In this document: positions 5,441-56,441 of the stretch, one piece after another
Layout of the letters: each line of letters opens with the position of its first letter
Position numbering within the stretch: the first letter of the stretch is position 1
Assembly (NCBI GenBank): GCA_010206225.2
Contig: VIQU02000009.1
Coordinates: 1-64,000, forward strand
Length of the DNA: 64,000 bases
Direction of reading: 5' to 3'
Source: Lachnospiraceae bacterium MD308
Lineage (GTDB): Bacteria; Bacillota; Clostridia; Lachnospirales; Lachnospiraceae
Translations under genes and position numbers: made by a program
Notes under the pieces: generated by a model
Told to the model about the DNA's origin: nothing
The model's database searches: none
The model's input: the letters and a program-made list of their open reading frames with translations, nothing else

Positions 5441-7088
<1,648 letters not shown>

Positions 7089-7188
7089 TCACCTCTTCTG
7101 ACTATTATTTCCGCTCGGAAAATGCGTTATTTACATTGTAACACACAAACAGATCATTTCGGCATAATTTTACCGCCATTACTTAAAT

Positions 7189-7839
7189 TTATCGTTTTTC
7201 ACTAAGCCATGCGTTTTCCGTCTCAGAAGCAGTCGTTCCCGGTACGTCTGACGGTATATTCTGAATTGTAATCGTAACCGCTTTATCTCCATCTAGAGCG
7301 ATCCTGATCATATCTCCACTTTGTATATCGCTTATTTTAGCTTCCTCTGTCGGGTGTTTCGGTGCCTCTTCCTTTTCACCTTGAGGCTCATTCGGCTGTT
7401 TTGGTGCTTCTTCCTTTTCACCTTGAGATTCCTCTGGCTTATTTCTTTCTTCTCCCTCCGGTTTTTCTGGCATCTTAGGCTCCTCCCCTTCTTCCTCCGG
7501 TTTCGTCCGATTCTTCGGCATTTCACCCTGCGGTCCACCTGCCATACCGCTTTCTTTATAAACTTCTGTCTCTTCTGTCACTTTAATCGTCTGTTCATCT
7601 CCGGTAAATTACATTTCTCCCGGTTCTTTACGCTGCTCAGCAATTTTAACCGTTATCTCACTCTTACTGACCGCAGATACCTGTCCATACAACATATTGT
7701 TCTCTTTGTTATCCGCTTTACTAATGCCATCCATACTTTTCTGGCTGCTTTGGGCGCTCTGACTGCTCTGACATCCGGTCACTGTTACCGTCAGCATCGC
7801 ACTCAATGCTATTGCCGTCAATATTTTCAATCTCTTCAT
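7189..7839 (-). pseudogene. Lipoprotein gene interrupted by an in-frame TAA
   Basis: The first part (7609-7839) encodes a lipoprotein signal ending in TVTGC, then SKSEITVKIAEQRKEPGEM, and stops at TAA (7609-7611). Reading on in exactly the same frame gives FTGDEQTIKVTEETEVYKES and then a low-complexity E/K/P region with GEKEEAPK repeats and a conserved-looking end (IQSGDMIRIALDGDKAVTIT), closing at 7189. The two halves are clearly one protein of about 216 codons, probably an extracellular lipoprotein modulating ion or metal interaction. Function is unknown. A single nonsense change is the simplest reading. Readthrough or a sequencing error cannot be excluded. Confidence 0.75.
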
Positions 7840-8002
7840 TGTTCTGTCTGTTCCTTTCTGATCAATGATTGCCGCATTCCGGCCCGACGGGGCTGTATAA
7901 TTTCAATTATAAATTATACCGTGATCCTTTGATAAAACTATGATGAATCTGTGACAGTTCTGTGTTTTATCATTCGATCAAATAAGAAAATTCATCGAAC
8001 GC

Positions 8003-8030
8003 AAAAAGCACCCTGTCATTCAGAGTGCTC
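8003..8030 (-). terminator. Terminator after tRNA-Arg
   Basis: On the minus strand AGCACTCTG pairs with CAGGGTGCT around a five-base loop and is followed by TTTTT. It lies about 30 bases after the 3' end of the tRNA-Arg gene. Confidence 0.8.
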
Positions 8031-8061
8031 TCGTCATCCATACATATAAGGATCAATATAA

Positions 8062-8135
8062 CGTGGGCGAGAGGATTCGAACCCCCGACCTTTTGGTCCG
8101 TAGCCAAACGCTCTATCCAGCTGAGCTACGCCCAC
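8062..8135 (-). tRNA. tRNA-Arg (anticodon ACG)
   Basis: A 74-base cloverleaf: acceptor GTGGGCG/CGCCCAC, D arm GCTCAGCTGGATAGAGC, anticodon arm TTTGG-CTACGGA-CCAAA with ACG at 34-36, and T arm containing GGTTCGAATCC. The discriminator base is G. CCA is not encoded and must be added by the CCA-adding enzyme. Confidence 0.96.
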
Positions 8136-8386
8136 ACAACTGTATATTTCTCTACAGCAAAAATAATTATATTCCATTTCCCACATTCTGTCAATAGAAA
8201 AATATTTTTTTCTACAGATTTTTTCCCAAACAGGCTGGCTTGCTCATTTTATTCGGATCTGGACTTTTTATCCTATCCACTTACATGCTAAAATAATAAC
8301 ATCATGTTCAATATCAGAAGAAAAAGCCATTGTCCCAGCAACGCAATATATAAATTTTACATATCAAAATTTAAAAAGGAGCCGCT

Positions 8387-9280
8387 ATGACAAAAAAAAT
8401 CGCAGTGATCAATGATTTATCCGGATTTGGCCGCTGTTCTCTGACTGCCGCCATCTCCGTTCTGTCAGCGATGGGAATATCCCCCTGTCCGCTTCCGACA
8501 GCCATCTTAAGCGCCCAGACCGGATATCCCAGCTATTATTGTGACGATTATACGGATAAGATGGAATATATCCGAAGGGAATGGAAAAACATGGGGGCAA
8601 AGTTCGACGGAATCTACACCGGATTCGTCGCAAGCGAAGAGCAGATCCGACAGATTTTTCAATTTCTTGACACGTTTCACCACGACGGGAGTTTCCTTCT
8701 TGTAGATCCTGTAATGGGGGATGACGGAATTCACTACGACATGTTTACAGACACACTGCTCTCGCTCATGAAGGAACTTGTCTTTCGAGCTGAGATAATC
8801 ACGCCAAACGTAACAGAACTGTGTCTTCTCACCGATACCGATTATGGGCACATCACGGGAATCAAGCAGCTCAGCCTGCTATCAGGGAAAAACGGATATA
8901 ATAAGCCTCTGCTGAAAGAGATTGCAATCCTCGCCCAATCCTTATGCAGACAACAGATAAAACACATCGTCGTGACCGGAATCCGATTTACAGATAAAGA
9001 CGGCATACAGAAGATGGGAAACCTCTATGCCACAGAAAATTCCTATGAGATGTTCTCATTTCCCTATGTAGGAGGAAGCTATTCTGGAACCGGTGATTTA
9101 TTCGCGTCTTGCCTGTGTGCCGGAATCGCCAGAGGTGATGATATTCCTTCTATCATACAGACTGCCGGAACATTCATCGAACTGGCTTTGAGCGATTCTG
9201 TAAAAGAACGAATTGACCGCAATGACGGCGTAAATTACGAAAAGTATCTTTCCCTTCTGATCCCGAAGACTTCCGACTAA
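8387..9280 (+). CDS. Pyridoxamine/pyridoxal kinase
   Basis: A 297-residue ribokinase-fold enzyme that phosphorylates vitamin B6 vitamers to feed pyridoxal phosphate supply. It shows the N-terminal NDLSGFGRCSLTAAI stretch, DPVMGDDG, ITPNVTE and the anionic-hole motif GTGDLFAS, all typical of PdxK/PdxY proteins. A good ribosome site (AAGGAG) precedes the ATG. It is monocistronic between tRNA-Arg and the gal operon. A hydroxymethylpyrimidine kinase is the alternative, but the motif set favours B6 salvage. Confidence 0.87.
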   Translation: MTKKIAVINDLSGFGRCSLTAAISVLSAMGISPCPLPTAILSAQTGYPSYYCDDYTDKMEYIRREWKNMGAKFDGIYTGFVASEEQIRQIFQFLDTFHHDGSFLLVDPVMGDDGIHYDMFTDTLLSLMKELVFRAEIITPNVTELCLLTDTDYGHITGIKQLSLLSGKNGYNKPLLKEIAILAQSLCRQQIKHIVVTGIRFTDKDGIQKMGNLYATENSYEMFSFPYVGGSYSGTGDLFASCLCAGIARGDDIPSIIQTAGTFIELALSDSVKERIDRNDGVNYEKYLSLLIPKTSD

Positions 9281-9290
9281 CGCGTAAAAG

Positions 9291-9322
9291 ACGGCGAATT
9301 TTACAATCCGCCGCCTTTCTTC
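9291..9322 (+). terminator. Probable terminator after pyridoxamine kinase
   Basis: Ten bases after the stop codon CGGCG pairs with CGCCG across a 12-base loop, followed by a mixed CCTTTCTT tail. An alternative GTAAAA/TTTTAC pairing overlaps it. The stem is short, so confidence is modest. Confidence 0.4.
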
Positions 9323-9381
9323 CTATGTCTTCCTAACTTCCTTCTGATACAGCAGCCTGTTGATATCTGCTGCTTTCTTTC

Positions 9382-10872
9382 CTACAAAGTATTGATAAAC
9401 CTCTCAAATGCCTCGCGTCCCTCAGGCGTACATTTGTAAACACCAGCGTCCTCCAGCACTTGTACGAATACATTCCCGATTTCCTTTTTCAGGATGTCAA
9501 CTACATTTTCCTTTGTGATATTTTCATATTTCGGCTTGAATTCCTCCACCCAGTCTGCATGTTTTTCAATCTTTTCATTGCTTCCGATCTCTTTTCCTTC
9601 TGTGATATACTCTGCCAGAAGCTCGATCTCTTCTTTCAGTCTGGAAGGCAGGACCGCAAGTCCCATAACCTCGATAAGACCGATATTTTCCTTCTTGATA
9701 TGATGGCGCTCTGCATGAGGGTGGTAGACGCCGAGCGGATGCTCTTCTGTAGTGATGTTATTGCGAAGCGTCAGATCAAGCTCGTACGTATCTCCCACCT
9801 TTCTTGCAATTGGCGTGATCGTGTTGTGAGGCTCTCCGTCTGTCTCCGCAAAGATAAACGCCTCCTCATCCGTATAGCCTCTCCATTTATTAAGCACATG
9901 GTCCGCCAGCTCGATCAGCCGCTTTTCATCCTTATTTCTGATACGCAGTACGGACAGCGGCCATTTTACGATGCCTGCCTCAACGTCTTCGTATCCCGGA
10001 ATCACTACCTGTTTCTCGATCGGAGCCTTCGCCATAGCAAAGGTATAATGTCCTCCCTGAAAATGATCATGGCTTAAGATGGAGCCGCCTACGATCGGAA
10101 GATCCGCATTGGAGCCGAGGAAATAGTGCGGAAACAGCTTTACAAAGTCAAACAGCTTGATAAATGCTGCCTTTTCAATCTTCATCGGCGTATGCTGTCC
10201 GTTGAACACGATACAATGTTCATTATAATATACATACGGAGAATACTGGAATCCCCACTTACTATCATTGATCGTGATTGGAATAATCCGATGATTTTCC
10301 CTTGCGGGATGATTTACACGTCCTGCATACCCTTCATTTTCCATACAGAGCAGGCACTTCGGATAACTGCTTGCCTTGGCGTTTTTAGCTGCCGCAATTG
10401 CCTTAGGATCCTTTTCCGGCTTAGAAAGATTTACCGTAATGTCAATCTCACCGTATTCGGAATCCACTTTCCACTTCATGTCTTTCTTTACACGGTAACG
10501 GCGGATATAATCACTGTCCTGGCTCAGCTTGTAAAAATATTCTGTCGCTTTTTCAGGCGTTCTTCCGTATCTGTCCCAAAATTCCTTCTGCACCTGGGCC
10601 GGTCTGGGCATTAAACAGTTCATAAGTTTTGTATCAAACAAATCCCTGTATACAATGCTGTCCTCAATAATTCCCCGCTCTACCGCCTCTTCAAGGAGAT
10701 TTTTAAGCACTTCTTCAAGATCAATGTCCGATCTGTCAACATCTGTATCCTCATAGCTGTCTTCCTTAAACATATCCAGCAGAAGATTGGTCGTATAAAT
10801 GCGCTCGCACTCTGGAACAAGCCCTGCCTGTACACCATATTCTACTAGTTTTTTAATATTTTCTGATAACAT
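9382..10872 (-). CDS. galT: UDP-glucose--hexose-1-phosphate uridylyltransferase
   Basis: A 496-residue enzyme of the Gram-positive class II GalT type (longer than the roughly 350-residue E. coli class), second step of the Leloir pathway: galactose 1-phosphate plus UDP-glucose gives UDP-galactose plus glucose 1-phosphate. The central region contains GGSILSHDHFQGGHYTF, the histidine-rich nucleotide-transfer site, and PHNTITPIARK. Strong ribosome site AAGGAGG. It starts 11 bases after galK, in the same operon, and lies opposite an AraC-type regulator. Confidence 0.95.
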   Translation of the reverse strand: MLSENIKKLVEYGVQAGLVPECERIYTTNLLLDMFKEDSYEDTDVDRSDIDLEEVLKNLLEEAVERGIIEDSIVYRDLFDTKLMNCLMPRPAQVQKEFWDRYGRTPEKATEYFYKLSQDSDYIRRYRVKKDMKWKVDSEYGEIDITVNLSKPEKDPKAIAAAKNAKASSYPKCLLCMENEGYAGRVNHPARENHRIIPITINDSKWGFQYSPYVYYNEHCIVFNGQHTPMKIEKAAFIKLFDFVKLFPHYFLGSNADLPIVGGSILSHDHFQGGHYTFAMAKAPIEKQVVIPGYEDVEAGIVKWPLSVLRIRNKDEKRLIELADHVLNKWRGYTDEEAFIFAETDGEPHNTITPIARKVGDTYELDLTLRNNITTEEHPLGVYHPHAERHHIKKENIGLIEVMGLAVLPSRLKEEIELLAEYITEGKEIGSNEKIEKHADWVEEFKPKYENITKENVVDILKKEIGNVFVQVLEDAGVYKCTPEGREAFERFINTL

Positions 10873-24631: not shown

Positions 24632-25480
24632 CTAATGAAGATTTTTCGCCGCCCGTATAACATGTTCCGCCAGAACAGAGGTGGTGATACTTCCTACTCC
24701 TCTCGGCACCGGACTGATATAAGAGGCCTTTTTCTTGGCTCTCTCAAAGTCCACGTCGCCGCAGAGATTTCCTTCTTCATCTACATTGATGCCCACGTCT
24801 GCAACTACTGCACCCTCTCCTACCATGTCCGCCGTTATCATCTTCGCTTTTCCGGCAGCCGCAATCAGAATATCGGCGCTCCTGCATATCTTAGGAAGAT
24901 CTACAGTCCTTGTATGGCAGATCGTAACGGTAGCGTTCTCTTTTAAAAGCATCATGGACAAAGGCTTTCCCACTACCATACTGCGTCCCACCACCGTCGT
25001 ATTCTTTCCTTTCAGATCAATACCGTAAAACTTTAACATCTTCATAACCGCTTCCGCCGTACAGGGTGCATAGCCTGTCTCATCTCCGGCAAATACCTTC
25101 GCAATATTCACGTCACTCATACAATCCATATCTTTTGCGGGATGGATCATTTTCCTTACCGGCTCCTCGTCAAGATGTTTCGGGAGAGGCCTGAACATCA
25201 GGATTCCGTGAACAGATGGGTTATCATTTACCTCCCGAAAGGCTTCTTCAAACTCCCTCTGTGTGATATCCCAAGGAAGCTCCCTCACCTGACACTTAAT
25301 TCCAACTGCCTCCATCCGTTTCTTCGCTCCCCGCTCATAAGACAGGTCCTCCTCACGGCTTCCTGCCCTGATGATAGCAAGACAGGGCATAACCCCGCCC
25401 CGCTTTAACAGTTCTGTCTCTTTTGTCAGCTCTTCTTTCATGGCATTTGCCACGTCAATGCCTTTCATTAATACACTCAT
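24632..25480 (-). CDS. folD: Methylenetetrahydrofolate dehydrogenase/cyclohydrolase
   Basis: A 282-residue bifunctional enzyme interconverting 5,10-methylene-, methenyl- and 10-formyl-tetrahydrofolate. The catalytic Tyr-x3-Lys is in YERGAKKRMEAVGI. DCMSDVN and VVGRSMVVGKPLSMMLL form the cofactor site, and PVPRGVGSITTSVLAEH closes the protein. Last gene of the one-carbon/glycine cleavage operon, ten bases after fchA. Confidence 0.94.
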   Translation of the reverse strand: MSVLMKGIDVANAMKEELTKETELLKRGGVMPCLAIIRAGSREEDLSYERGAKKRMEAVGIKCQVRELPWDITQREFEEAFREVNDNPSVHGILMFRPLPKHLDEEPVRKMIHPAKDMDCMSDVNIAKVFAGDETGYAPCTAEAVMKMLKFYGIDLKGKNTTVVGRSMVVGKPLSMMLLKENATVTICHTRTVDLPKICRSADILIAAAGKAKMITADMVGEGAVVADVGINVDEEGNLCGDVDFERAKKKASYISPVPRGVGSITTSVLAEHVIRAAKNLH

Positions 25481-25489
25481 CGCTACCTC

Positions 25490-26116
25490 CTACCGTATCT
25501 TGTCAAGCACGCCCGCATAGATCTCTTCCTGCAGCTTTCTCCCCTGCGCGATCAGATCGTCCGACTCCCTGTTGAGTTTTTCTGCCCTCTCACGATTTTT
25601 CATAAGCTTCGTATTGATATAGATATTCAATGAAGCCCCCTCGAGAGCGGCTCTTGCAAAAAGTACCGCAACACCCACATCACTGACGGCAAGCCTGCTG
25701 CCCTTTTTTTCCAGTACCTTTAAGAGCCCGAACACTTCAAAAACAGTTCTCACGATTTCAAGAGGAACCATGCTTGCCTCATAAAGCGCACTCTCCATCA
25801 CTTCTTCTTTTCTTTCGATTTCCTCCGGCGTTCCCTTCGGCATAGAATAGGCTTTCGCTAACGGTTCAAAAGCCTCTGCGTCCTTATCCGTCAGAAAAAT
25901 AAGCCTTTCTTTAAGCTCCTCCAGCTGGCTGCGGATTCCTATGATTTCTTCTTCGACGTCCGCATATTTTTTCTTTCCCACCGTCAGGTTCGTCACCATC
26001 ATTCCCAGCGCGGCCGCAAATGCGCCTACCGCTGCGGAGGCTCCGCCGCCGCCCGGCGTCGGTTCTTTTGAAGATAACACATTAAGAAAATCTGTTGCCT
26101 TTTGCTCTAACATCAT
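25490..26116 (-). CDS. fchA: Cyclodeaminase/cyclohydrolase family protein
   Basis: A 208-residue FTCD_C-type protein with the glycine-rich GGGGASAAVGAFAAALGMMV loop, KKKYADVEEE and DKDAEAFEPLAKAY. In Clostridia the stand-alone form acts as methenyltetrahydrofolate cyclohydrolase or formimino-THF cyclodeaminase. It sits between the broken fhs and folD, so a cyclohydrolase role in the same folate steps is likely. Confidence 0.85.
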   Translation of the reverse strand: MMLEQKATDFLNVLSSKEPTPGGGGASAAVGAFAAALGMMVTNLTVGKKKYADVEEEIIGIRSQLEELKERLIFLTDKDAEAFEPLAKAYSMPKGTPEEIERKEEVMESALYEASMVPLEIVRTVFEVFGLLKVLEKKGSRLAVSDVGVAVLFARAALEGASLNIYINTKLMKNRERAEKLNRESDDLIAQGRKLQEEIYAGVLDKIR

Positions 26117-26131: not shown

Positions 26132-27272
26132 CTAAAATAGTCCTGATATGACACCGTTTGCATCTACATCAATCTTTTCCGCAGACGGCACCTTCGGAAG
26201 TCCTGGCATCTTCATGATGTCTCCGGTCAGAGCTACTAAAAAGCCCGCGCCTGCTGACGCTGTAACATCCCGGACCGTAATCCTGAAATCTGTCGGTCTT
26301 CCCAGTTTCTTTGCATCATCTGTCAGAGAATACTGATTTTTCGCCATGCAGATTGGAAGATTGCCAAGACCGATGGCCTCTAAGTTTTTAATCTCTTTGT
26401 TAGCTTTCGGCGTATAGTCTACCCCTGACGCTCCGTATACCTTCTCAGCAATAGCCGTGATCTTCTCTTTGACAGATTCCTCTTCATTATACACGAATTC
26501 CATCGTGCTGTCTCCCTCACAAAGCTTCAAAACTTCTTTTGCAAGCTCCTCGCCGCCTGCGCCGCCTTTCGCCCATACCTCTGACAACGCCGCCTTTACG
26601 CCATATTCCTTGCACTTTTCACGCACAAGTTTAGGCTCTCCCTCTGTATCTGTCGGAAATGCGTTGATTGCCACAACAACAGGAAGATGATATACTTCGG
26701 TAATATTTTCAATATGTTTAAGGAGATTCGGAATTGCTTCTTAACTGGCGGTCATTCATATCCACACAGCGGCGCCATGTTACTTTATTTGTATCGATAT
26801 CCAGCGCATTACCCTGATGGATATGGTTGTCAAGCATTGCCGCGATCAGATTGTTTGCAGCGCCAATCGCATGAAGATCCCCTGTAAAATGAAGGTTGAT
26901 GTCCTCCATAGGCACAACCTGAGCATAACCGCCTCCTGCCGCTCCGCCCTTTACTCCGAACACCGGTCCGAGGGAGGGCTCTCTTAATGCTACCATCGTC
27001 TTTTTACCCAGACGGTTCAGAGCGTCTGCCAAGCCAATTGTCGTAGTCGTCTTTCCCTCGCCCGCAGGCGTTGGATTGATGGCTGTCACAAGAACTACCT
27101 TTGCATCCTTCCCGCTCTCAAGCTCTTCGCTGTAGTACCGATAATCGATCTTTGCCTTGTATTTTCCGTAATTTTCCACATATCTGTCAGGAATTCCTAT
27201 CTTATCCGCAATCTCATTAATCACCTTCATCTCGGTTTCCTGTGCAATCTCTATATCACTTTTAAATCCCAT
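26132..27272 (-). pseudogene. fhs: Formate--tetrahydrofolate ligase gene with internal deletion
   Basis: The 5' part reads normally from [11 protein letters not shown] through the P-loop [18 protein letters not shown] to VDMNDRQLR. Immediately after, the sequence jumps, in another frame, to [20 protein letters not shown] and the C-terminal part MAINAFPTDTEGEPKLV to the stop at 26132. Intact enzymes are about 556 residues. Here roughly 165 codons between the DMNDRQLR and PNLLKHI motifs are missing and a frameshift sits at the junction (about 26737). The encoded fragments cannot make an active synthetase. The start is taken as the fifth codon of the longest frame. Confidence 0.9.
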
Positions 27273-27301
27273 ATCACATACCATCCTTACTTTTATATTC
27301 T

Positions 27302-28708
27302 TTATCTTTTCTTCCTCGGCATTACATGGATCGCCTCTCCTACAGCATCTTCTAATGCCTCTGACACACCTTCGTTATAGGTTGGATGTGAGCGCATACC
27401 CTTTATAAGCTGCCCGGCCGTCATCCGGTTTGCCACCGCCGTTACAAGCTCCCCAATCATATCTGTAGCTCTGGCGCACATCATCTGCGCTCCTACAACA
27501 ACTCCTGTCTCTCTTTCAACAACAACCTTTACAAATCCACGTTCTTCTTTTGTGATGATACTCTTCCCATTAGCGCTCATAATAAACTTTCCGGTCTTTA
27601 TATCCAGTCCCGCTTCCTTTGCCTCATCCTCTGTAACTCCCACTGAAGCAATCTCCGGATCTGTATAGACGCACCCTGGAACTGCCTCAAGCGATACGGA
27701 GGGCTTTTTTCCTGCGAGTACTTCTGCCACGTACATACCCTGAGCGCTTGCCAGATGAGCGAGCTGCATTCCCCTCACCAGATCGCCGATGGCATATACT
27801 CCTTCTATACTGCTTTCAAAATTCTCATCCACTACAATGCGTCCCCGCTCCATCTCTGGTTCCATTCCCTCTCCGAACAAACCGTCTGTATCCGGGCATC
27901 TCCCTACCGCACACAAAATATACTGCGCAGATACTCTGATCTCTTTCTCCTTTTCAGTAAACACGCACGTGTACAGTCCCCCATTCTGCTCCACGCTCTT
28001 CACTGACGCAGAGGTGTAAATATCAACTCCGCGCTTTTTTAAAATCATCTTTAAATTCTGGGATATCTCCTTATCCATATTAGGGACCAGCCTTGAAAGC
28101 GCCTCTACGATCGTTACCTTGCAGCCCAAATCCGCATATACGCTGGCAAATTCCACACTGATCACGCCCCCGCCTATGATAACAAGGCTCTTTGGCTCCT
28201 CTTTTAACCGAAACAGTTCGTCACTGGTAAGAACGCCCGGAAGATCAATGCCCGGTATCGGAATCACTAACGGCTTTGAACCGGATGCCAGAATGATATG
28301 CCGGGCCTCGCACACACTTTCTGACTCACCGTCGATGACTCTTACCTGCCTCCCTTGTTCCAGTATCCCTTTTCCTTTTAACATCGTTATGCCATTGGCT
28401 TTCAGAAGCTGTTCCACTCCCTGACACAGCTTATCTGTCGTTTCTTCTTTATATGCCAGAATCTTGCCGTAGTCATAACTTATCTCCGATGCCAGAACAC
28501 CGAATCTCTCTCCCTCTTTCATCTCCCTGTAAAGAGAGGAGGCATGTATCATCGCTTTTGCCGGAATACACCCCCTATTCAGACAAGTGCCTCCCACTCT
28601 TCTTTCTTCCACGATCGCTGTGCGGAGTCCCTCTTTTGCCGCTTTGACCGCTGCTACATAACCCCCTGGTCCCGCACCGATTACCACCAGATCAAATCTT
28701 TCTCCCAT
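27302..28708 (-). CDS. lpdA: Dihydrolipoyl dehydrogenase
   Basis: A 468-residue flavoprotein that reoxidises dihydrolipoyl groups with NAD+ (L-protein of glycine cleavage or E3). It shows the FAD fold [17 protein letters not shown], the redox disulfide [13 protein letters not shown], the NAD fold [20 protein letters not shown], and the C-terminal [15 protein letters not shown] with the catalytic His-Glu pair. It has no fused lipoyl domain. Position between lplA and fhs points to the glycine cleavage system. Confidence 0.94.
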
Positions 28709-28720
28709 AACTGCTCTCCT

Positions 28721-29719
28721 TTACAAATCTTCAGTTTTTATCCATTCAATAATATCCGCCATCATTCTTTCTTCTTCCTTGTCCGAAGACCAGTAAAGCC
28801 CAAGCTCCACACAGATTGCATGTTTGTCGTAACGAATATTTTTAAGATACCCTCTAAGCTGCTCTATAAATTCCGGTTTCATGGAATCCGAAAAAACATT
28901 TACATCCCTGACCTTTCCATTCTTCACCTGAAACTGCAGCGTTATCTGCCCCCACACAAAACGCTTTGACAGCTCATACTGAAAAGCCAGTGTCCTCCCA
29001 TATATCCAGTCCCACGAAGAAAACTTCTCCGTCCTCTCTCTAATCTCTTCTTTGTCAAGCTCACTGACTTCTAATATTCTGGCTTTTAATCCGTAGACCT
29101 CTTCAAAACTTGCCCGAAGCTTTTCTTTTAACTGATCAATGGTAAGTCCCGGCGCATAGCTTTTTAAGTTCACCACCCTCGACCTTACAGAATCCACGCC
29201 TTTTGCCTGAAGCTTTTCCTTAGAGACAGTCAGATATCTTGAAAGCTCGCCGAGATTCACATCCACCATCAGAGTCCCATGATGATAGCAATACTCTCCC
29301 TGCTTATAAAATGCATTGCCTGAAAATTTATGTTCATCTATCAATATATCGTTTCGGCCGGATTTCTTTGCATTTATCCCCAATTTCCTGACTGCCGTTA
29401 AGATAACCTCAAGCTGCCTGTCTACATCGTAATTTTCCTTTCTTACAAGAAAAGTAAAATTCAGATTTCCCAGATCATGATAGACAGCTCCGCCGCCCGA
29501 CTGCCTTCGCACCGGATATCCTTTCTCATCTTCCAGTTTATTTACAATACATTCCTTCCAGATATTCTGATTCCGTCCTATGACAACTGTGTTGGCATTC
29601 TGCCAGAGATACAAGATACACTCATCCTCAGCACAGTGGAGGAGCAAATACTCCTCCACTGCCAGATTGCGGTAAGGATTCGTCTCTTTACTTTCGATAT
29701 ATGATAATTTTCTGATCAT
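28721..29719 (-). CDS. lplA: Lipoate--protein ligase
   Basis: A 331-residue ligase that activates lipoate and attaches it to the H-protein lysine. RRQSGGGAVYHDLGNLNFTF, KKSGRNDILIDEHKFSGNAF and HHGTLMVDV are the family motifs, and the C-terminal accessory domain is present. I start at ATG 29719, two bases from the gcvPB stop. The eight-codon upstream extension lies inside gcvPB. Confidence 0.92.
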   Translation of the reverse strand: MIRKLSYIESKETNPYRNLAVEEYLLLHCAEDECILYLWQNANTVVIGRNQNIWKECIVNKLEDEKGYPVRRQSGGGAVYHDLGNLNFTFLVRKENYDVDRQLEVILTAVRKLGINAKKSGRNDILIDEHKFSGNAFYKQGEYCYHHGTLMVDVNLGELSRYLTVSKEKLQAKGVDSVRSRVVNLKSYAPGLTIDQLKEKLRASFEEVYGLKARILEVSELDKEEIRERTEKFSSWDWIYGRTLAFQYELSKRFVWGQITLQFQVKNGKVRDVNVFSDSMKPEFIEQLRGYLKNIRYDKHAICVELGLYWSSDKEEERMMADIIEWIKTEDL

Positions 29720-29720
29720 C

Positions 29721-31157
29721 TTACTTCTCCCTGTTAAAATCATACTTAAGAACCGGATGCCTTGCAGCTTCTACCTCGTCCAGCCTTTCAACTGGCGTTT
29801 TCACCGGCGCCGCATGGAGTTTATCTGCATCACTCTGGGCAATCTCATAAAGCTTTCTGAATACGTCAGCTGCCCCATCCAATGTCTCTTTCGACTCTGT
29901 CTCTGTCGGCTCTATCATAAGCGCCTCGTCAACGATCAGCGGGAAGTACATTGTCGGCGGATGGATACCATTGTCCAAAAGCCCCTTTGCAATATCCATT
30001 GCAGATACTCCCGTCTTTTTCTTCAGATCAGAAAGACTCATAACAAACTCATGCATGCATACTTCTTCATATGCCATTGTATAACAATCCTTTAATTTAT
30101 GCATCATATAATTCGCATTCAGTACCGCACCCTTGCTTGCCGCCGGAATTCCTTCCTTTCCTAAAGTCATCAGATAAGTAAGCGCCCTGACAACCACTAA
30201 AAAATTCCCATAAAAACTCTTAAGTTCTCCGATACTGTTTGCCGGTTTTACAAAGGAAAGCTCTTCCTCTCCTTCTACAAGGACAGAAGGAAGGAACTGC
30301 GCCAGATGCTCCTTGCAGCCAACCGGACCGCTTCCCGGACCGCCGCCGCCATGAGGAGTAGAAAATGTCTTGTGGAGATTCAGATGTATCACATCGAAGC
30401 CCATATCTCCCGGACGTACCATCCCCATCACTGCGTTTAAGTTCGCCCCGTCATAATAGCACTGCCCGCCGCACTCGTGGATGATCCTTGTAATTTCTAA
30501 AATATTTTTATCAAATAATCCCACTGTATTCGGATTCGTGAGCATAAGACCGGCGACATCATCCCCCGCCGCTTCTTTAAGTTTCACCAGATCCACGCAC
30601 CCGTCTGATCCGGAGGGGATACTTACTACCGAATATCCCGCCATAACTGCACTGGCCGGATTCGTTCCATGGGCAGAATCAGGCACGATGATCTTTGTTC
30701 TTTTCTTATCGCCCCTGCTCTCATGATAAGCCTTGATCAGGAGAAGACCTGTAAATTCTCCATGCGCTCCTGCCGCCGGCTGAAAAGTCATGCGCTCCAT
30801 ACCTGTAATCCCGCACAGATACTCTTCTGCTGTTTTTATAACCTCCATGCAGCCTTGTACCGTATGGGCCGGCTGAAGCGGGTGAATATCTGTAAATCCT
30901 TTTAACGCTGCCATATCTTCATTGATCTTCGGATTATATTTCATCGTACAGGAACCAAGGGGATAAAAACCGTCATTTACTCCGTGGCATTTCTTCGCAA
31001 GCTCTGTATAATGTCTGCTCAGCTCATTTTCAGAAAGCTCCGGCATATGAAGAGCAAGCTTTCTTTTGTCCTTCTCCTCTGGCAGCACCACCTCTACGTC
31101 GCATTCCGGAAGAAGGCTTAACCGTCTGCCTTTCCTGCTTTTTTCAAATACTAACAT
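29721..31157 (-). CDS. gcvPB: Glycine dehydrogenase (decarboxylating) subunit 2
   Basis: A 478-residue P-protein beta half. The pyridoxal-phosphate lysine lies in LNLHKTFSTPHGGGGPGSGP. MTFQPAAGAHGEFTGLL, PDSAHGTNPASA and EPTETESKETLD are conserved. Together with gcvPA it decarboxylates glycine and passes the aminomethyl group to lipoyl-GcvH. Reading frame looks intact, although its H and T partners here are not. Confidence 0.94.
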   Translation of the reverse strand: MLVFEKSRKGRRLSLLPECDVEVVLPEEKDKRKLALHMPELSENELSRHYTELAKKCHGVNDGFYPLGSCTMKYNPKINEDMAALKGFTDIHPLQPAHTVQGCMEVIKTAEEYLCGITGMERMTFQPAAGAHGEFTGLLLIKAYHESRGDKKRTKIIVPDSAHGTNPASAVMAGYSVVSIPSGSDGCVDLVKLKEAAGDDVAGLMLTNPNTVGLFDKNILEITRIIHECGGQCYYDGANLNAVMGMVRPGDMGFDVIHLNLHKTFSTPHGGGGPGSGPVGCKEHLAQFLPSVLVEGEEELSFVKPANSIGELKSFYGNFLVVVRALTYLMTLGKEGIPAASKGAVLNANYMMHKLKDCYTMAYEEVCMHEFVMSLSDLKKKTGVSAMDIAKGLLDNGIHPPTMYFPLIVDEALMIEPTETESKETLDGAADVFRKLYEIAQSDADKLHAAPVKTPVERLDEVEAARHPVLKYDFNREK

Positions 31158-31160
31158 CCG

Positions 31161-32483
31161 CTACACCTCCCTTGCCAGAGCAACCGCCCTGTCAATATCC
31201 TCTTTGCTGTTCATCTCCGTACAGCACCACAGAATCCTATGATCATCTAACGGATATCCACCGAGGATTCCTTTTGTCTCTAACACGGCAAGCACCTTCT
31301 CTGAAGGCTTTTCAGACACCGTGATGAACTCGTGAAAATATTCGCCCCCATTTTCTATCTCAAAACCTGACTTTTCAAGCTCTCCCGCCATATAATGCGC
31401 CTTTGACATGCACTGCACTGCCATGCACTTAAGACCTTCCTTTCCCATAGCGGATAGATACACCCCTACGGCCAACGCACAGAGTGCCTGATTGGAACAC
31501 ACGTTGCTCGATGCCTTTTCCCTTCGGATATGCTGTTCTCTTGCCTGAAGCGTCAGCACATACCCTCTCCTGCCGCTCCTGTCTGTCGTCTGTCCTACGA
31601 TCCGCCCCGGAAGCTTTCTTGTAAGCTTCGCATTACATGCCATAAATCCAAGGTACGGTCCGCCGAATGCCAGATCGAGTCCGAAAGGCTGACCTTCGCC
31701 GACTGCTATATCCGCCCCGTACTCTCCCGGCGTCTTAAGTACTCCTAAGGATATTGGATTTACGCCCATAATGTATCTCGCTCCTGATGCATGGACAATT
31801 TCCCCTATTTCCTGTGCCTCCTCCAGACTGCCGTAAAAATTTGGATGTTGGATATATACACATGCCGTCGTATCATCTGCCAATTCTTTTAGCGCTTCCA
31901 TATCCGTAACACCGTCCTTTTCAGGAACGATCACAAGTTCATGACCGCTTCCGAAACAATATGTCTTTATTGTTTCCAGTACATACGGATTAACCGTTTC
32001 GGATACTAATGCTTTTTTCCTCTTTCTCTCACAGCACATGGCGATACTCTCTGCCGCTGCGCTGGCTCCGTCGTATACAGACGCATTGGAAGCGTCCATT
32101 CCCGTGAGATCGCAGATCATTGTCTGGTACTCAAAGATCGTCTGCAGGATCCCCTGACTGATCTCTGCCTGATAAGGCGTATAAGCCGTCAGAAAATTCT
32201 CTTTCGATATCACACTCTTTACAATCGACGGTATAAAATGCCTGTACGCACCCGCACCCCGAAAGCACACCGGAAATACCCGGTTCTTTTCTGCGATGCC
32301 TTCTATCTTACGCCTGACTTCCAGCTCGGTCATGCCCGACGGAATCTGAAGCTCTCCGGAAAGCTTCACCTCGTCCGGAATATGGGCGAACAATTCATCC
32401 ATAGAAGAAACGCCAATCTCCTTAAGCATCTCCTCCTGCTCTTTTTCTGTTACCGGGATATACCCAAAGGTATTCTTTCCCAT
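31161..32483 (-). CDS. gcvPA: Glycine dehydrogenase (decarboxylating) subunit 1
   Basis: A 440-residue P-protein alpha half with YIPVTEKEQEEMLKEIGV at the start, FRGAGAYRHFIPSIV, TAYTPYQAEISQGILQTIFE and ASNVCSNQALCAL. I place the start at ATG 32483 (MGKNTFGYIP); the frame is open a further 11 codons, overlapping gcvH, without family similarity. It sits three bases from gcvPB. Confidence 0.93.
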   Translation of the reverse strand: MGKNTFGYIPVTEKEQEEMLKEIGVSSMDELFAHIPDEVKLSGELQIPSGMTELEVRRKIEGIAEKNRVFPVCFRGAGAYRHFIPSIVKSVISKENFLTAYTPYQAEISQGILQTIFEYQTMICDLTGMDASNASVYDGASAAAESIAMCCERKRKKALVSETVNPYVLETIKTYCFGSGHELVIVPEKDGVTDMEALKELADDTTACVYIQHPNFYGSLEEAQEIGEIVHASGARYIMGVNPISLGVLKTPGEYGADIAVGEGQPFGLDLAFGGPYLGFMACNAKLTRKLPGRIVGQTTDRSGRRGYVLTLQAREQHIRREKASSNVCSNQALCALAVGVYLSAMGKEGLKCMAVQCMSKAHYMAGELEKSGFEIENGGEYFHEFITVSEKPSEKVLAVLETKGILGGYPLDDHRILWCCTEMNSKEDIDRAVALAREV

Positions 32484-32502
32484 AAAGCGTCCACCGCCCT
32501 TC

Positions 32503-32778
32503 CTATTCTTTCTCACTCTCTACAAATGCTTTGTATTCTTCTGCTGTTAACAGCTCTTCTCTCTCCGTGATGTCTTTTACCTTTACAAACCATGCGTCAT
32601 AAGGAGCCTCATTGATCCGCTCCGGCGCGTCTAAAAGCTCTTCATTTACCTCGCTTACAGTTCCCGATACCGGCGCATACACATCCGACACTGTCTTTAC
32701 AGACTCTACGTCTGAAAATGACTCTCCAACCACAAGCTCGTCTCCCTCTTCCGGAAGAGCGCAAAGGTATAATAATTT
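32503..32778 (-). pseudogene. gcvH: 5'-truncated glycine cleavage H protein
   Basis: The homology begins abruptly at [15 protein letters not shown] and continues through [20 protein letters not shown] to a normal C-terminus ending KAFVESEKE. The lipoyl-acceptor lysine (ESVK) is kept, but about 45 N-terminal residues are missing. The frame meets a TGA at 32779-32781 and the sequence upstream is unrelated. Translation could only restart at a GTG (32733), so a functional H protein is unlikely. Confidence 0.85.
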
Positions 32779-32802
32779 TCAATAGGACGCCACATTAAAT
32801 TT

Positions 32803-33349
32803 CTACAGCAGCGAATGGATCGCCCCGTCTCTACACTGGTTCGGTGTAATTACGTAAGGGATATTTTTAGAGTCCATCATATTGTGGGCGCCGCGAAAAC
32901 CTCCCGGCTCATACGGGAACATGGCCGTATCGTACATATTTCCGAGTCCGGTAACTGATCGGTACATGAGGAGCTGTAATTCTGGGAGCGCCCTGCTGTC
33001 TTGCGATCGACAGCACCGCGATCGTTCCCAGATCATTCATGATCGCCACTTCTATGGCTGTATCATTAACTTCTGTTATGCTTCTGCCCAGCAGGCAGGG
33101 CTCTGGCTCGTGATCCGGCGTCATATCTAAATCATCGTAATCTAATGGCTCTTCTGTAATCTGAACATAACTGAAATAAAATTCCGTCTCATGTGCCGCA
33201 GCTACCGGCTCTTCCCTGATGATCAAACGCTCGGGTATCTTGATCAATCCCAGCCTGCCATGCAGATGAACCTTGACTTTTCCATCCTTGACTTCCTTCA
33301 CAAGCCCACCCATTCCGTCATAATCATAGGCAAGCTTGGCTCTTTCTTC
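32803..33349 (-). pseudogene. Fused remnant resembling proline-reductase-cluster genes
   Basis: Immediately after the DUF4179 stop and in the same frame, the minus strand reads EERAKLAYDYDGMGGLVKEV, KVHLHGRLGLIKIPERLI and, later, DTAIEVAIMNDLGTIAV. This matches my recollection of the small CBO2463/CBO2479-type proteins found in clostridial D-proline reductase clusters. In another frame it then reads VTGLGNMYDTAMFPYEPGGF and SKNIPYVITPNQCRDGAIHS, like the C-terminus of PrdD/component-B-type reductase proteins. I read it as two gene ends joined out of frame (junction about 33000) by deletion. It occupies the place where gcvT would be expected. Family names are from memory. Confidence 0.5.
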
Positions 33350-34462
33350 CTACTTCACCGCAAACTCCACCCCATTCACCGTTATCTTCGCGATATCATC
33401 CACATCCACCAGCCGGTTGAACACAGTCTTATAGTACGTTCCCGCCCCGAGCTGATAGCTGCTGTTCTCCACATTTTTCTCCTTGTTGCAGACAACATAG
33501 CTTTCCTGATTCTTATACTCCACCGCAATCGAATTCAGATAGTACGGATCCTGCGCCTCTTCCTTGGAAAGCCCTAATCCCTTTGCCATGTCAACGCTCA
33601 GCGCAATGGGTGAATACTCCAAATAGCCCTTATCGCCCATATCAATCTTTCGTACCGGAACCGGCTTTTTCGAAGTCAGCCTGATGCGCTCTGTCTCCGT
33701 CTTTGTCTCCTCTGTTAGTTCCTTTCTGGTGCATGGATACGTCACGAGCATTAGCTCCGGCACATCCTCGTCCTTCAACGGCTCGTTCCACAACATGTAG
33801 GAATAGCAGTAAAGCTTGTCATCCGTACTCTTCTTCATGTCTATATAAGTATTCTCCCCGGCGAATGCTCCGTTTTTCGTCTCGCAGCTAAAGTAAAAAT
33901 CTGAATCATCTGTAAAATAGGCGCCCTTCGTAAGGTTCGTCTCCTCATCTCCCGCAAGAGCCGTAACCCCGCCTTCCCTCTCCAGCGTGAAATACATCAT
34001 CGCTCCGTTCCTGTCATAGACAAAGCTGTTGACCGTAAGGATATGACTGCCGATCTTCTTCACGATCGGCTCCTCTGATACATAAGCGCCGATTGCCTGT
34101 TCCGCCATCTCCTCGTTCACAGGAACATACTCTCTGGAGGGCAGCGTCACCGTAACCTTGGCGTCCTTCCCCTCTTTTCCAGTATCGATCTCACGCTTTA
34201 AGATACCGTTAGACTCTCTCGATTCATTGCCGAACATGGCCTGAAAAAATTCTGTCTTTGAGGATGCGTATACCACACCCGGAACCGCCATGCAGAAGAC
34301 CGCGATAGCCGCTGCTATCCTCCGTGCACTCCCCGCCTTCCTCCGGCGGACATTCCTCTTTTCAAGCTGCTTATACGTCTCCTGAATCCTCGTCTCCACC
34401 ACATCCGAAATCTGAATATCCTGACTGAAGATATCTCTCATCTCTTTTTCTGTTTTCTTCAT
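33350..34462 (-). CDS. DUF4179 membrane protein, putative anti-sigma factor
   Basis: A 370-residue protein: cytoplasmic N-terminus with a coiled stretch (ETRIQETYKQLEKRNVRRRK), one membrane helix (about 47-66, IAAAIAVFCMAVPGVVYAS) and a large extracytoplasmic domain of the DUF4179 kind found next to ECF sigma genes. It starts 15 bases after the sigma factor gene with AAGGAGG. Sequestration of that sigma factor by the N-terminus is inferred. The gene is followed with no gap by reductase-like debris. Confidence 0.8.
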   Translation of the reverse strand: MKKTEKEMRDIFSQDIQISDVVETRIQETYKQLEKRNVRRRKAGSARRIAAAIAVFCMAVPGVVYASSKTEFFQAMFGNESRESNGILKREIDTGKEGKDAKVTVTLPSREYVPVNEEMAEQAIGAYVSEEPIVKKIGSHILTVNSFVYDRNGAMMYFTLEREGGVTALAGDEETNLTKGAYFTDDSDFYFSCETKNGAFAGENTYIDMKKSTDDKLYCYSYMLWNEPLKDEDVPELMLVTYPCTRKELTEETKTETERIRLTSKKPVPVRKIDMGDKGYLEYSPIALSVDMAKGLGLSKEEAQDPYYLNSIAVEYKNQESYVVCNKEKNVENSSYQLGAGTYYKTVFNRLVDVDDIAKITVNGVEFAVK

Positions 34463-41317: not shown

Positions 41318-41426
41318 AATTTACTTTTGTGTTTTCTTCTACTTTGCATATTCATTCGCAGTGGCATTTGTTTTCCCTTTTATGGGAAGCTATAACAGTA
41401 ACACCATGATTAAATAGTATTCGTTC

Positions 41427-42053
41427 CTATTTCTCGAAAACTACAAAACCACATTCGTAAGGATGGTCGCAATACACACTTTCTTGTTTATCAGTGTGGT
41501 ATAACATACTTTTCAGTATAATTAGAAAATCTCCGCCACCTGAAATAATCATAAATTCTGCCAGAATAAATAGCAGTAATTGATTTGTCATTACAGAAAC
41601 TACTGCTGCTCCACCGCCTAAAACTAATGTAGGCATAGCAGTTCCCAGCAAATATTGCCACTTTTCCAACGGTTCGGAGCAAGTACAGTATGGAGAAAAA
41701 CTACTCCAAATAAATCCAAAATCAATCGAATGAAAATGATTCTTTGCAAAAAAACCCCAAGTGATGCCATGTATTAATTCATGTAAAATAGTTAGAGGAA
41801 GAAGAAGAAACGCCGCTACGACAAATCTCAAAGAAATCCCCCCTAAATCAAAACCATTCACATTATAGTAAAACAAAAATGTTAAAGCTATAAATGGCAG
41901 CATACTCAAAGGTCCTAAAAAATTCGCTTGTCGAATATTGATCGTCATATTCTTAATTTTATATCCTTTTTGCTGCATTTCAGAATTGAATTTTTCAAAG
42001 TTAATTTTACGTTTCAATTCTTTTTCTGTTAATTTTCTTTTATCGTTATCCAT
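41427..42053 (-). CDS. DUF3267 zincin-like membrane protein
   Basis: A 208-residue membrane protein with four to five hydrophobic segments. ILHELIHGITWGFF contains HExxH, the zinc site that gives DUF3267 its 'putative zincin peptidase' label. N-terminus is basic and cytoplasmic. Start at ATG 42053 because GGAGG lies eight bases upstream. It is closely similar to the copy at 45654-46283. Substrate unknown. Position beside the FtsX permeases suggests envelope protein quality control or peptide degradation. Confidence 0.75.
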   Translation of the reverse strand: MDNDKRKLTEKELKRKINFEKFNSEMQQKGYKIKNMTINIRQANFLGPLSMLPFIALTFLFYYNVNGFDLGGISLRFVVAAFLLLPLTILHELIHGITWGFFAKNHFHSIDFGFIWSSFSPYCTCSEPLEKWQYLLGTAMPTLVLGGGAAVVSVMTNQLLLFILAEFMIISGGGDFLIILKSMLYHTDKQESVYCDHPYECGFVVFEK

Positions 42054-42076
42054 AGATAATTCCTCCAAATTTGAAT

Positions 42077-45621: not shown

Positions 45622-45653
45622 AGCCTGCCGCCTCCTTATTCCACAATTTGTTC
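45622..45653 (-). repeat. Scar: last codons of a lost ATPase gene
   Basis: The 32 bases before this FtsX gene match those at 48683-48713, including the CCTCCTTATTCCACAAT block that encodes the final IVE and stop of the MacB-type ATPase. Here the ATPase body is absent and the sequence joins directly to the DUF3267 3' end. This shows that an ATPase-FtsX pair was duplicated and the ATPase deleted. Confidence 0.7.
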
Positions 45654-46283
45654 CTATTTCTCAAAAACAACAAAACCACATTCGTAAGGATGGTCGCAAT
45701 ACACACTTTTTTTCTTATCAGTGCGGTGTAACATGCCTTTCAGTACAATTAGAAAATCTCCACCACCTGATGCAATCATGTACTCTGCCAGCAAAAATAT
45801 TAGTAATTGATTTGTCATCACCGCAGCTACTGCACTCCCACCTCCTAAAACCAATGTAGGCATAGCAGTTCCTAACAAATACTGCCACTTTTTCAACGGT
45901 TCGGAGCAAGTGCAGTATGGAGAAAAACTACTCCAAATAATTCCGAAATCAATCGAATGAAAATGTTTTTTTGCAAAAAGCCCCCAGGTAATTCCATGTA
46001 TTAGCTCATGCAGAATGGTGAGGCATGAAATAAGCACAATCAATGCTACAACAAATCCCAACGAAAGACAATCCAAATCAAAACCATACACATGATAGTA
46101 TATCCAAAATGCTAAAGCCATAAATGGCAGCATAATTAAAAGACATAAAGGCTTTGCCTGTTGTGTATTGATAATTATATTTTTCGTTTTATATCCTTTT
46201 TGCTGCATTTCAGAATTGAATTTTTCAAAGTCACTTTTACGTTTTAATTCTTTTTCTGTTAATTTTCTTTTATCGTCAGCCAT
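45654..46283 (-). CDS. DUF3267 zincin-like membrane protein, second copy
   Basis: A 209-residue paralogue of the 41427 protein, most similar in the first 40 residues and around HELIHGITWGLF (HExxH). Same predicted membrane topology and the same C-terminus (YECGFVVFEK). The ATG at 46283 is preceded by GGAGG. It lies between two FtsX genes, 26 bases after the first, within the same operon. Confidence 0.78.
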   Translation of the reverse strand: MADDKRKLTEKELKRKSDFEKFNSEMQQKGYKTKNIIINTQQAKPLCLLIMLPFMALAFWIYYHVYGFDLDCLSLGFVVALIVLISCLTILHELIHGITWGLFAKKHFHSIDFGIIWSSFSPYCTCSEPLKKWQYLLGTAMPTLVLGGGSAVAAVMTNQLLIFLLAEYMIASGGGDFLIVLKGMLHRTDKKKSVYCDHPYECGFVVFEK

Positions 46284-46309
46284 AGATAATTCCTCCAAAT
46301 TTTATACGC

Positions 46310-48696: not shown

Positions 48697-49362
48697 TTAT
48701 TCCACAATCTTGCCATCCTCAATGCGGATAATCCGATCTGCAAGGCGGGCAATGTCATTGTTGTGGGTAATCATCACGACAGTTTGCCGGAACTCCGCGC
48801 TGGTGCGTTTGATAAGCCCCAGCACCTCGGCGCTGGTCTTGCTGTCAAGGTTGCCGGTCGGCTCGTCGGCCAGCACGATAGCCGGTTTGGTAATCAGGGC
48901 GCGGGCAATCGCCACACGCTGCTGCTGGCCGCCGGAAAGATTGTTCGGCATATTTTTCAGTTTATCTTCCAGCCCCAGCAGGTGAACGATCTCGTCCAAA
49001 AACTTCTGATCCACCGTGTCCCCGTCCAGCTCCACCGGCAGGACGATGTTCTCATACACATTCAGGATGGGAACAAGGTTATAGTTCTGGAAGATAAAGC
49101 CGATGTTGCGGCGGCGGAAGATGGTGAGCTGTTCGTCGTTCTTCTTTGCCAGTTCTTCGCCCCGGACAATCACGGTTCCGCTGGTGGGAGTGTCCAGCCC
49201 GCCCATCATGTGAAGCAGGGTAGACTTGCCGCTGCCGGAGGTTCCCACAACGGCCACAAATTCGCCCTCGTCTACGGAGAAGTTCACGCCGTCAAGGGCG
49301 CGGGTAATGTTCGGCTCTGTGCCGTAATGCTTTTTCAGGTCGATAGTCTGTAAAATGCTCAT
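48697..49362 (-). CDS. MacB/LolD-type ABC transporter ATPase
   Basis: A 221-residue ATPase: Walker A GTSGSGKST, Q-loop FQNYNLVPILNVYENI, signature LSGGQQQR, Walker B IVLADEPTGNLD. ATG 49362 has AAGGAG. The frame continues upstream through promoter DNA and should not be used. It is visibly GC-richer than the permeases around it. As the sole ATPase for four FtsX permeases in the cluster, it may energise all of them. Confidence 0.92.
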   Translation of the reverse strand: MSILQTIDLKKHYGTEPNITRALDGVNFSVDEGEFVAVVGTSGSGKSTLLHMMGGLDTPTSGTVIVRGEELAKKNDEQLTIFRRRNIGFIFQNYNLVPILNVYENIVLPVELDGDTVDQKFLDEIVHLLGLEDKLKNMPNNLSGGQQQRVAIARALITKPAIVLADEPTGNLDSKTSAEVLGLIKRTSAEFRQTVVMITHNNDIARLADRIIRIEDGKIVE

Positions 49363-49416
49363 ATTCAAAACTCCTTTCAAGGCTTTCTGCCTGTTGATAA
49401 GGGTATTGTAAAACCC

Positions 49417-49494
49417 AAATGTCCGCGAAATGTTACAGCGGCCCAAAAAATTCATTGAAAATCGGGGTGAAATGTTACAACGCTCGGACATTTC
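49417..49494 (-). promoter_or_regulatory. Regulon promoter motif before the ATPase operon
   Basis: AAATGTCCGCG then AAATGTTACAG (49417-49438) gives AAATGT half-sites exactly 11 bp apart. A second element, GAAATGTTACAACGCTCGGA continuing to ACATTTC (49469-49494), carries inverted half-sites. Tandem 11-bp spacing is typical of OmpR/PhoB-class regulators. The hairpin-rich stretch that follows (49500-49545) recurs at 54560-54600. Confidence 0.75.
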
Positions 49495-49545
49495 AGCCGA
49501 AAACCTGCCACTGGCAGCTTTATCGGCACACTACTGCGAAAATTT

Positions 49546-51921: not shown

Positions 51922-51963
51922 AGTTGTATCACCTCCATATTTGATAAGGGTATTGTAAAACCC

Positions 51964-52041
51964 AAATGTCCGCGAAATGTTACAGCGGCCAAAAAACTTT
52001 ATTGAAAACCGGGGTGAAATGTTACAACGCTCGGACATTTC
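51964..52041 (-). promoter_or_regulatory. Regulon promoter motif before FtsX permease 2
   Basis: Same two-part element as at 49417: direct AAATGT repeats 11 bp apart (51964-51985) and the inverted element (52016-52041). Downstream of it the hairpin segment present in the other two copies is missing. Confidence 0.75.
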
Positions 52042-52045
52042 AAAA

Positions 52046-54433: not shown

Positions 54434-54475
54434 AGTTGTATCACCTCCATATTTGATAAGGCTATTGTAAAACCC

Positions 54476-54553
54476 AAATGTCCGCGAAATGTTACAGCAG
54501 CCAAAAAATTTCATTGAAAATCGGGGTGAAATGTTACAGCGCTCGGACATTTC
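54476..54553 (-). promoter_or_regulatory. Regulon promoter motif before FtsX permease 1
   Basis: Third copy of the double element (direct repeats 54476-54497, inverted element 54528-54553), followed on the plus side by the CTGCCACTGGCAG hairpin block also found at 49500-49545. Confidence 0.75.
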
Positions 54554-54641
54554 AGCCGAAAACCTGCCACTGGCAGCTTTATCGGCACACTACTGCGAAA
54601 AAATTTGCGGCGGGCAGCCGGAAATGGCCGTCCGCCGCGTT

Positions 54642-56362: not shown

Positions 56363-56402
56363 ATCCGCACTTCCTTTGCTTTTTGCAGATAGTATAACAG
56401 GC

Positions 56403-56424
56403 AAATGTCCGCGAAATGTTACAG
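56403..56424 (-). promoter_or_regulatory. AAATGT direct-repeat site before the regulator gene
   Basis: AAATGTCCGCG plus AAATGTTACAG, identical over 22 bases to the elements before the ATPase and permeases 1 and 2. The second, inverted element is absent here. Confidence 0.75.
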
Positions 56425-56441
56425 CGGACGGATTTTTTCAA

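Follow-up and report, generated by a model that had tools for sequence, protein, structure and literature searches.

The glycine-cleavage operon and its broken fhs gene

The window analysed here is a 64-kb stretch of DNA from the genome G000; coordinates without a locus label refer to it, and the remaining G and L codes denote other genomes and loci. An operon of glycine-cleavage and one-carbon genes lies on its minus strand. An earlier note on this DNA had described the genes flanking fhs (formate-THF ligase) as intact, and this holds for six of them, which are open and full length: folD (24632-25480), fchA (25490-26116), lpd (27302-28708), lplA (28721-29743), gcvPB (29721-31157) and gcvPA (31161-32516). 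The products of lpd, lplA, gcvPB and gcvPA scored over the cut-offs of TIGR01350, TIGR00545, NF003346 and NF001696, respectively. fchA was assigned by Pfam FTCD_C, with 190.8 bits against a cut-off of 275 for NF045657, and folD by Pfam, with scores below the equivalog cut-offs of the NCBIfam models listed.

gcvH, which lies upstream of gcvPA, is truncated, and gcvT was not found. The gcvH remnant (32506-32772, minus strand) is without approximately its first 41 residues and retains the lipoyl region (PF01597 positions 34-121 of 122). Its tblastn alignment with GcvH of L036 begins at residue 38 and is good from residue 43, leaving residues ~42-126, and its scores fall under the NCBIfam cut-offs (93.4 bits against 117, and 88.0 against 115.85). 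The sole other GCV_H match in G000, on contig C135, reached 21.6 bits, below the Pfam cut-off of 22.2. No match to gcvT was obtained in G000 or its five genus mates (none of six), using a search that was positive in 11 of 14 control genomes; with an assembly that is 97.14% complete, the gene could in principle lie in a gap of G000. A glycine riboswitch was likewise not found in the 64-kb window. P protein (gcvPA, gcvPB) and L protein (lpd) are thus represented, but with gcvH truncated and no gcvT found, full-length H and T proteins are not, and the glycine-cleavage system is incomplete. Judged from the sequence, it is disrupted at two of its four components, and this does not depend on fhs. 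The presence of gcvP, lpd and lplA in this genome does not therefore mean that it has working glycine cleavage.

The fhs gene itself (26132-27272, minus strand) retains ~178 N-terminal and ~200 C-terminal codons, and its middle is absent. The N-terminal remnant (26745-27272) comprises 176 codons and matches positions 1-173 of the 556 positions of Pfam FTHFS (E 1.6e-86); the C-terminal remnant (26132-26734), of ~200 codons with the stop codon kept, matches positions 358-556 (E 2.4e-77). In the whole-genome profile search the coverage was 1-176 and 354-556. DNA alignment with 14 intact fhs genes placed the deletion join at about 26733-26742 and showed the gap to be flanked by the peptides DMNDRQLR and [10 protein letters not shown], confirming the position and the boundary peptides given for the gene in the earlier note. 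The broken gene measures 1141 bp against 1680 bp in the intact L117 ortholog (8646-10325, 559 aa), which makes it 539 bp short, and since 539 is not a multiple of three, its two parts are separated by a frameshift. This bears out the note's proposal that the middle third is lost and the frame changed. Homology to FTHFS extends over both remaining parts, the full domain of ~556 positions is not present in one frame, and by comparison with intact orthologs in the same locus the gene carries a disabling lesion.

No additional stop or frameshift was detected inside either part. Against eight intact orthologs, the N-terminal remnant showed 88.6-93.2% and the C-terminal remnant 78.4-86.4% amino acid identity. 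At columns invariant in eight relatives, the two remnants departed at 4 of 147 and 9 of 143 positions, and the intact operon genes gcvPB, fchA and folD at 9 of 328, 10 of 115 and 13 of 154, so that the remnants show no clear excess of substitutions by this count. In most genes tested, intact ones among them, the window sequence shows more such departures than the majority of relatives do, although one relative, L119, departs equally or more in several genes. Sequence decay consequently gives no independent proof of the lesion, and the pattern would fit either a young lesion or an artefact.

The operon in relatives and in the sister genome

Searching GTDB genomes with the window's lpd recovered 46 loci, 11 of which have fchA downstream of lpd. 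Six of these 11 (L034, L035, L036, L041, L042 and L067) carry an intact fhs in the order lpd-fhs-fchA-folD. A serine hydroxymethyltransferase gene (Pfam SHMT, 560 bits) fills the slot in one, a Dorea MAG (L037 7278-8525). The slot is empty, at 35-163 bp, in the other four (L039 9402-9564, L040 9405-9439, and L043 and L044, both 9405-9468), where it may have been emptied or never filled. As it can hold fhs, SHMT or nothing, the content of the slot varies among lineages.

In the six fhs-bearing relatives the operon reads glycine riboswitch-gcvT-gcvH-gcvPA-gcvPB-lplA-lpd-fhs-fchA-folD. The riboswitch precedes it in 7/7 relatives scanned, and gcvT with a full-length gcvH precedes gcvPA in all nine loci with the operon that were tested; the gcvT and gcvH query genes, from L036, had been identified by Pfam. 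The gene order from gcvPA to folD is the same in the window as in Faecalicatena contorta ET51/ET55, Dorea sp. D27, Extibacter muris, the Dorea MAG SUG81 and Lachnospiraceae bacterium CE91-St61, and the GcvPB of the window has 87% amino acid identity to that of L034-L036. However, these relatives retain the riboswitch, gcvT, a full gcvH and a full fhs, and the window does not. A DNA search of 299 family genomes revealed more sites, among them G127, G010, G040, G286 and G190, at which both fhs halves lie ~540 bp apart, as in an intact gene (G166, probably the same strain as L034, was not counted as independent of it). The closest intact copies in this search were only ~73-81% identical to the broken fhs at the DNA level.

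Outside this group, the accessible part of one report describes, as in the window, an fhs adjoining gcvP and the glycine-cleavage genes in Peptoclostridium acidaminophilum, and states that in this species such enzymes pass glycine-derived methylene-THF via formyl-THF to formate (PMC12674515). Unlike the window, the gcv region described there contains no lpd or lplA, and decay is not mentioned in that part of the report (PMC12674515).

Within the genus, G003 is the genome closest to G000 (98% amino acid identity in pyrH). Between the same neighbours (L145 2389-5494) it holds only a 103-bp piece of gcvPB followed by lplA, fchA and folD, the last three intact; lpd and fhs (window 26135-28715), gcvPA and gcvH are gone. 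The gcvPB relic is interrupted by an in-frame stop, and its junction with lplA lies at the 7-bp repeat AAGTATG. This repeat is present at both corresponding places in the window, which indicates that the loss in G003 was a deletion between short direct repeats. G001, G002 and G005 have no operon sequence in the corresponding place (3/3), and in G004 the neighbours that flank the operon are on different contigs. The earlier view of an isolated lesion in an otherwise intact cluster is therefore not tenable, as G000 has also lost the riboswitch, gcvT and the beginning of gcvH, and most of the operon is gone from the sister genome.

dN/dS between G000 and G003 was 0.119 for lplA and 0.103 for both fchA and folD. 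Five neighbouring genes gave 0.039-0.128, and values within or near this range indicate that the three survivors are under constraint. Elsewhere in G000, a lipoate-dependent 2-oxoacid dehydrogenase cluster with E1 alpha and beta, a lipoyl-bearing E2 and E3 was located on contig C68 (5159-10822; L159 1159-6823), which may offer lplA a use outside glycine cleavage.

A second fhs and a D-proline reductase relic

The genome-wide search for another fhs that the earlier note had called for recovered a full-length copy on contig C62 of G000, with 556 codons, no internal stop and 932.8 bits across all 556 Pfam positions. Of the two outcomes the note had offered, a second fhs or a cell that no longer makes formyl-THF from formate, the former is what we found. 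Given a full-length, diverged fhs on another contig, loss of formyl-THF synthesis is not predicted, and we ruled out this explanation. At 68% and 66% DNA identity to the two remnants, the C62 gene is a paralog rather than the product of a recent duplication. The fhs match lies 44 bp downstream of an ftsK-like gene in four of six genus genomes (G000, G001, G002 and G005), and in G004 the two are on separate contigs. We also considered that G003 might be without any fhs. No match was obtained there, but its contig C71 stops 74 bp past the ftsK-like gene and the assembly is 89% complete, so that, on the evidence at hand, a gap in the assembly accounts for the missing match, and we rejected the idea.

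Directly upstream of the gcvH remnant, and adjoining it, lies the putative relic of a D-proline reductase cluster (32806-33349, minus strand), consisting of a CBO2463 domain (NF041553, 96.1 bits, cut-off 50), a PrdB fragment (TIGR04483 positions 153-195 of 238) and then, in another frame, the C-terminus of PrdD (TIGR04482 positions 190-245 of 246). The last two fell far below cut-off, and their probable identity as PrdB and PrdD rests on gene order and on comparison with the intact prd clusters of the genus. These have the order of the relic with wider spacing, positions 108-612 of a 921-bp query corresponding to 6857-8827 (~1.97 kb) in L142. Fragments only, and no full-length PrdA, PrdB or PrdD, are present at 32806-33349; a full PrdA, together with a PrdD-like match, is on contig C69 of G000. 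We rejected the relic as a misassembled piece of the C69 cluster, as blastn gave no match at E 0.01 and tblastx identities were only 34-46%. blastn against all five prd loci (C69 and four others) gave no DNA-level match at E 0.01, from which it follows that the relic derives from a different, second prd cluster. Nothing resembling window 32700-33420 was found in the plasmid collection.

Origin of the fhs deletion and further features of the window

We consider it probable, with good confidence, that the broken gene is a dispensable fhs paralog inside a dying glycine-cleavage operon. The gene set suggests that the ancestral unit was driven by the riboswitch and oxidised glycine to methylene-THF, which would have passed via formyl-THF to formate with a gain of ATP; the formate-ward direction of the operon fhs is inferred from this. 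Without the riboswitch and promoter end, gcvT and the first part of gcvH, the glycine pathway would no longer be able to run. The operon fhs, redundant with the C62 paralog and deprived of substrate flow, would then have been free to go, and may have been lost through the 539-bp frame-shifting deletion in that order of events. Deletion between short repeats is a plausible route, since such a repeat is seen in G003. Their retention and low dN/dS suggest that folD and fchA are kept for ordinary one-carbon supply and, together with the C68 cluster, that lplA is kept for a lipoate-dependent 2-oxoacid dehydrogenase elsewhere. gcvPA, gcvPB and lpd might be expected to go next, as in the sister genome. 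Seen this way, the broken fhs would be no metabolic puzzle, as an intact paralog covers for it and the break belongs to a wider loss of the operon.

The most serious competitor is an error of assembly or strain mixture, in which a false join has produced the 539-bp gap in a gene that is really intact. This is a draft assembly of 156 contigs, and the remnants are otherwise clean, as such a join would leave them. However, the broken fhs and the C62 copy share no exact stretch longer than 17 bp, which is short for a repeat-driven collapse at assembler word sizes. All eight neighbouring genes compared are equal in length in G003 and free of frameshifts (taking folD of G003 from its second Met), and the same operon has a further lesion in G000 and has undergone large deletions in G003, all of which makes a false join unlikely, though it deserves some weight. 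That the gene yields a shortened but functional Fhs, or two mutually complementing polypeptides, is scarcely credible. Both remnants have open frames and good conservation, but the gene contains no coding sequence for the ~180 middle residues, and its second part is in a different frame from the first. Moreover, the eight distinct solved Fhs sequences that matched are all 543-568 residues long and align across the missing region, and an intact fhs is present elsewhere in the genome.

Two further readings give selection a larger part. The operon might be expressed with a partial new function, such as a lipoate/one-carbon unit of lplA, fchA and folD, the rest having been shed by selection and not by drift. 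These three genes are indeed intact in both G000 and G003, but the ordinary use of each explains its survival, and we hold this to be very unlikely. It is also conceivable, though we think it rather improbable, that across the genus selection and not drift alone dismantles the glycine-to-formate route, the riboswitch-driven half including the operon fhs going first and lplA-fchA-folD being retained as a reduced unit in the service of the housekeeping fhs, which would run the other way and use formate. If this were true, G000 and G003 would represent two stages in the directed removal of glycine oxidation, next to what was once a second D-proline reductase cluster.

Returning to the decay of a dispensable paralog and its operon, deletion pseudogenes and operon decay are already known kinds of event. 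The accessible parts of two reports describe bacterial pseudogenes removed by deletion, with a likewise stepwise inactivation and deletion of redundant genes (PMC2916853, PMC5447742). The window differs from the cases described in those parts in that it concerns a metabolic operon, non-reduced genomes and two stages in sister genomes. A search of the published literature, made without full texts, returned no report of this lesion. The value of the G000/G003 pair would lie in showing a single amino-acid fermentation operon at two stages of decay in genomes that are not reduced (2.7-4.5 Mb in the genus), with the surviving genes hinting at which of them have uses beyond the glycine pathway.

Two repeated features were observed elsewhere in the window. 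A 180-nt repeat is present in three copies (49316-49495, 51863-52042 and 54375-54554) of 64-100% identity, with a 51-nt core also at 56390-56440; the copies sit at the 5' ends of ABC-transporter-like genes and are possibly a shared regulatory or recombination sequence. In addition, two similar genes of ~213 aa (41419-42072 and 45646-46302), with 83-87% DNA identity over two stretches, point to a local duplication.
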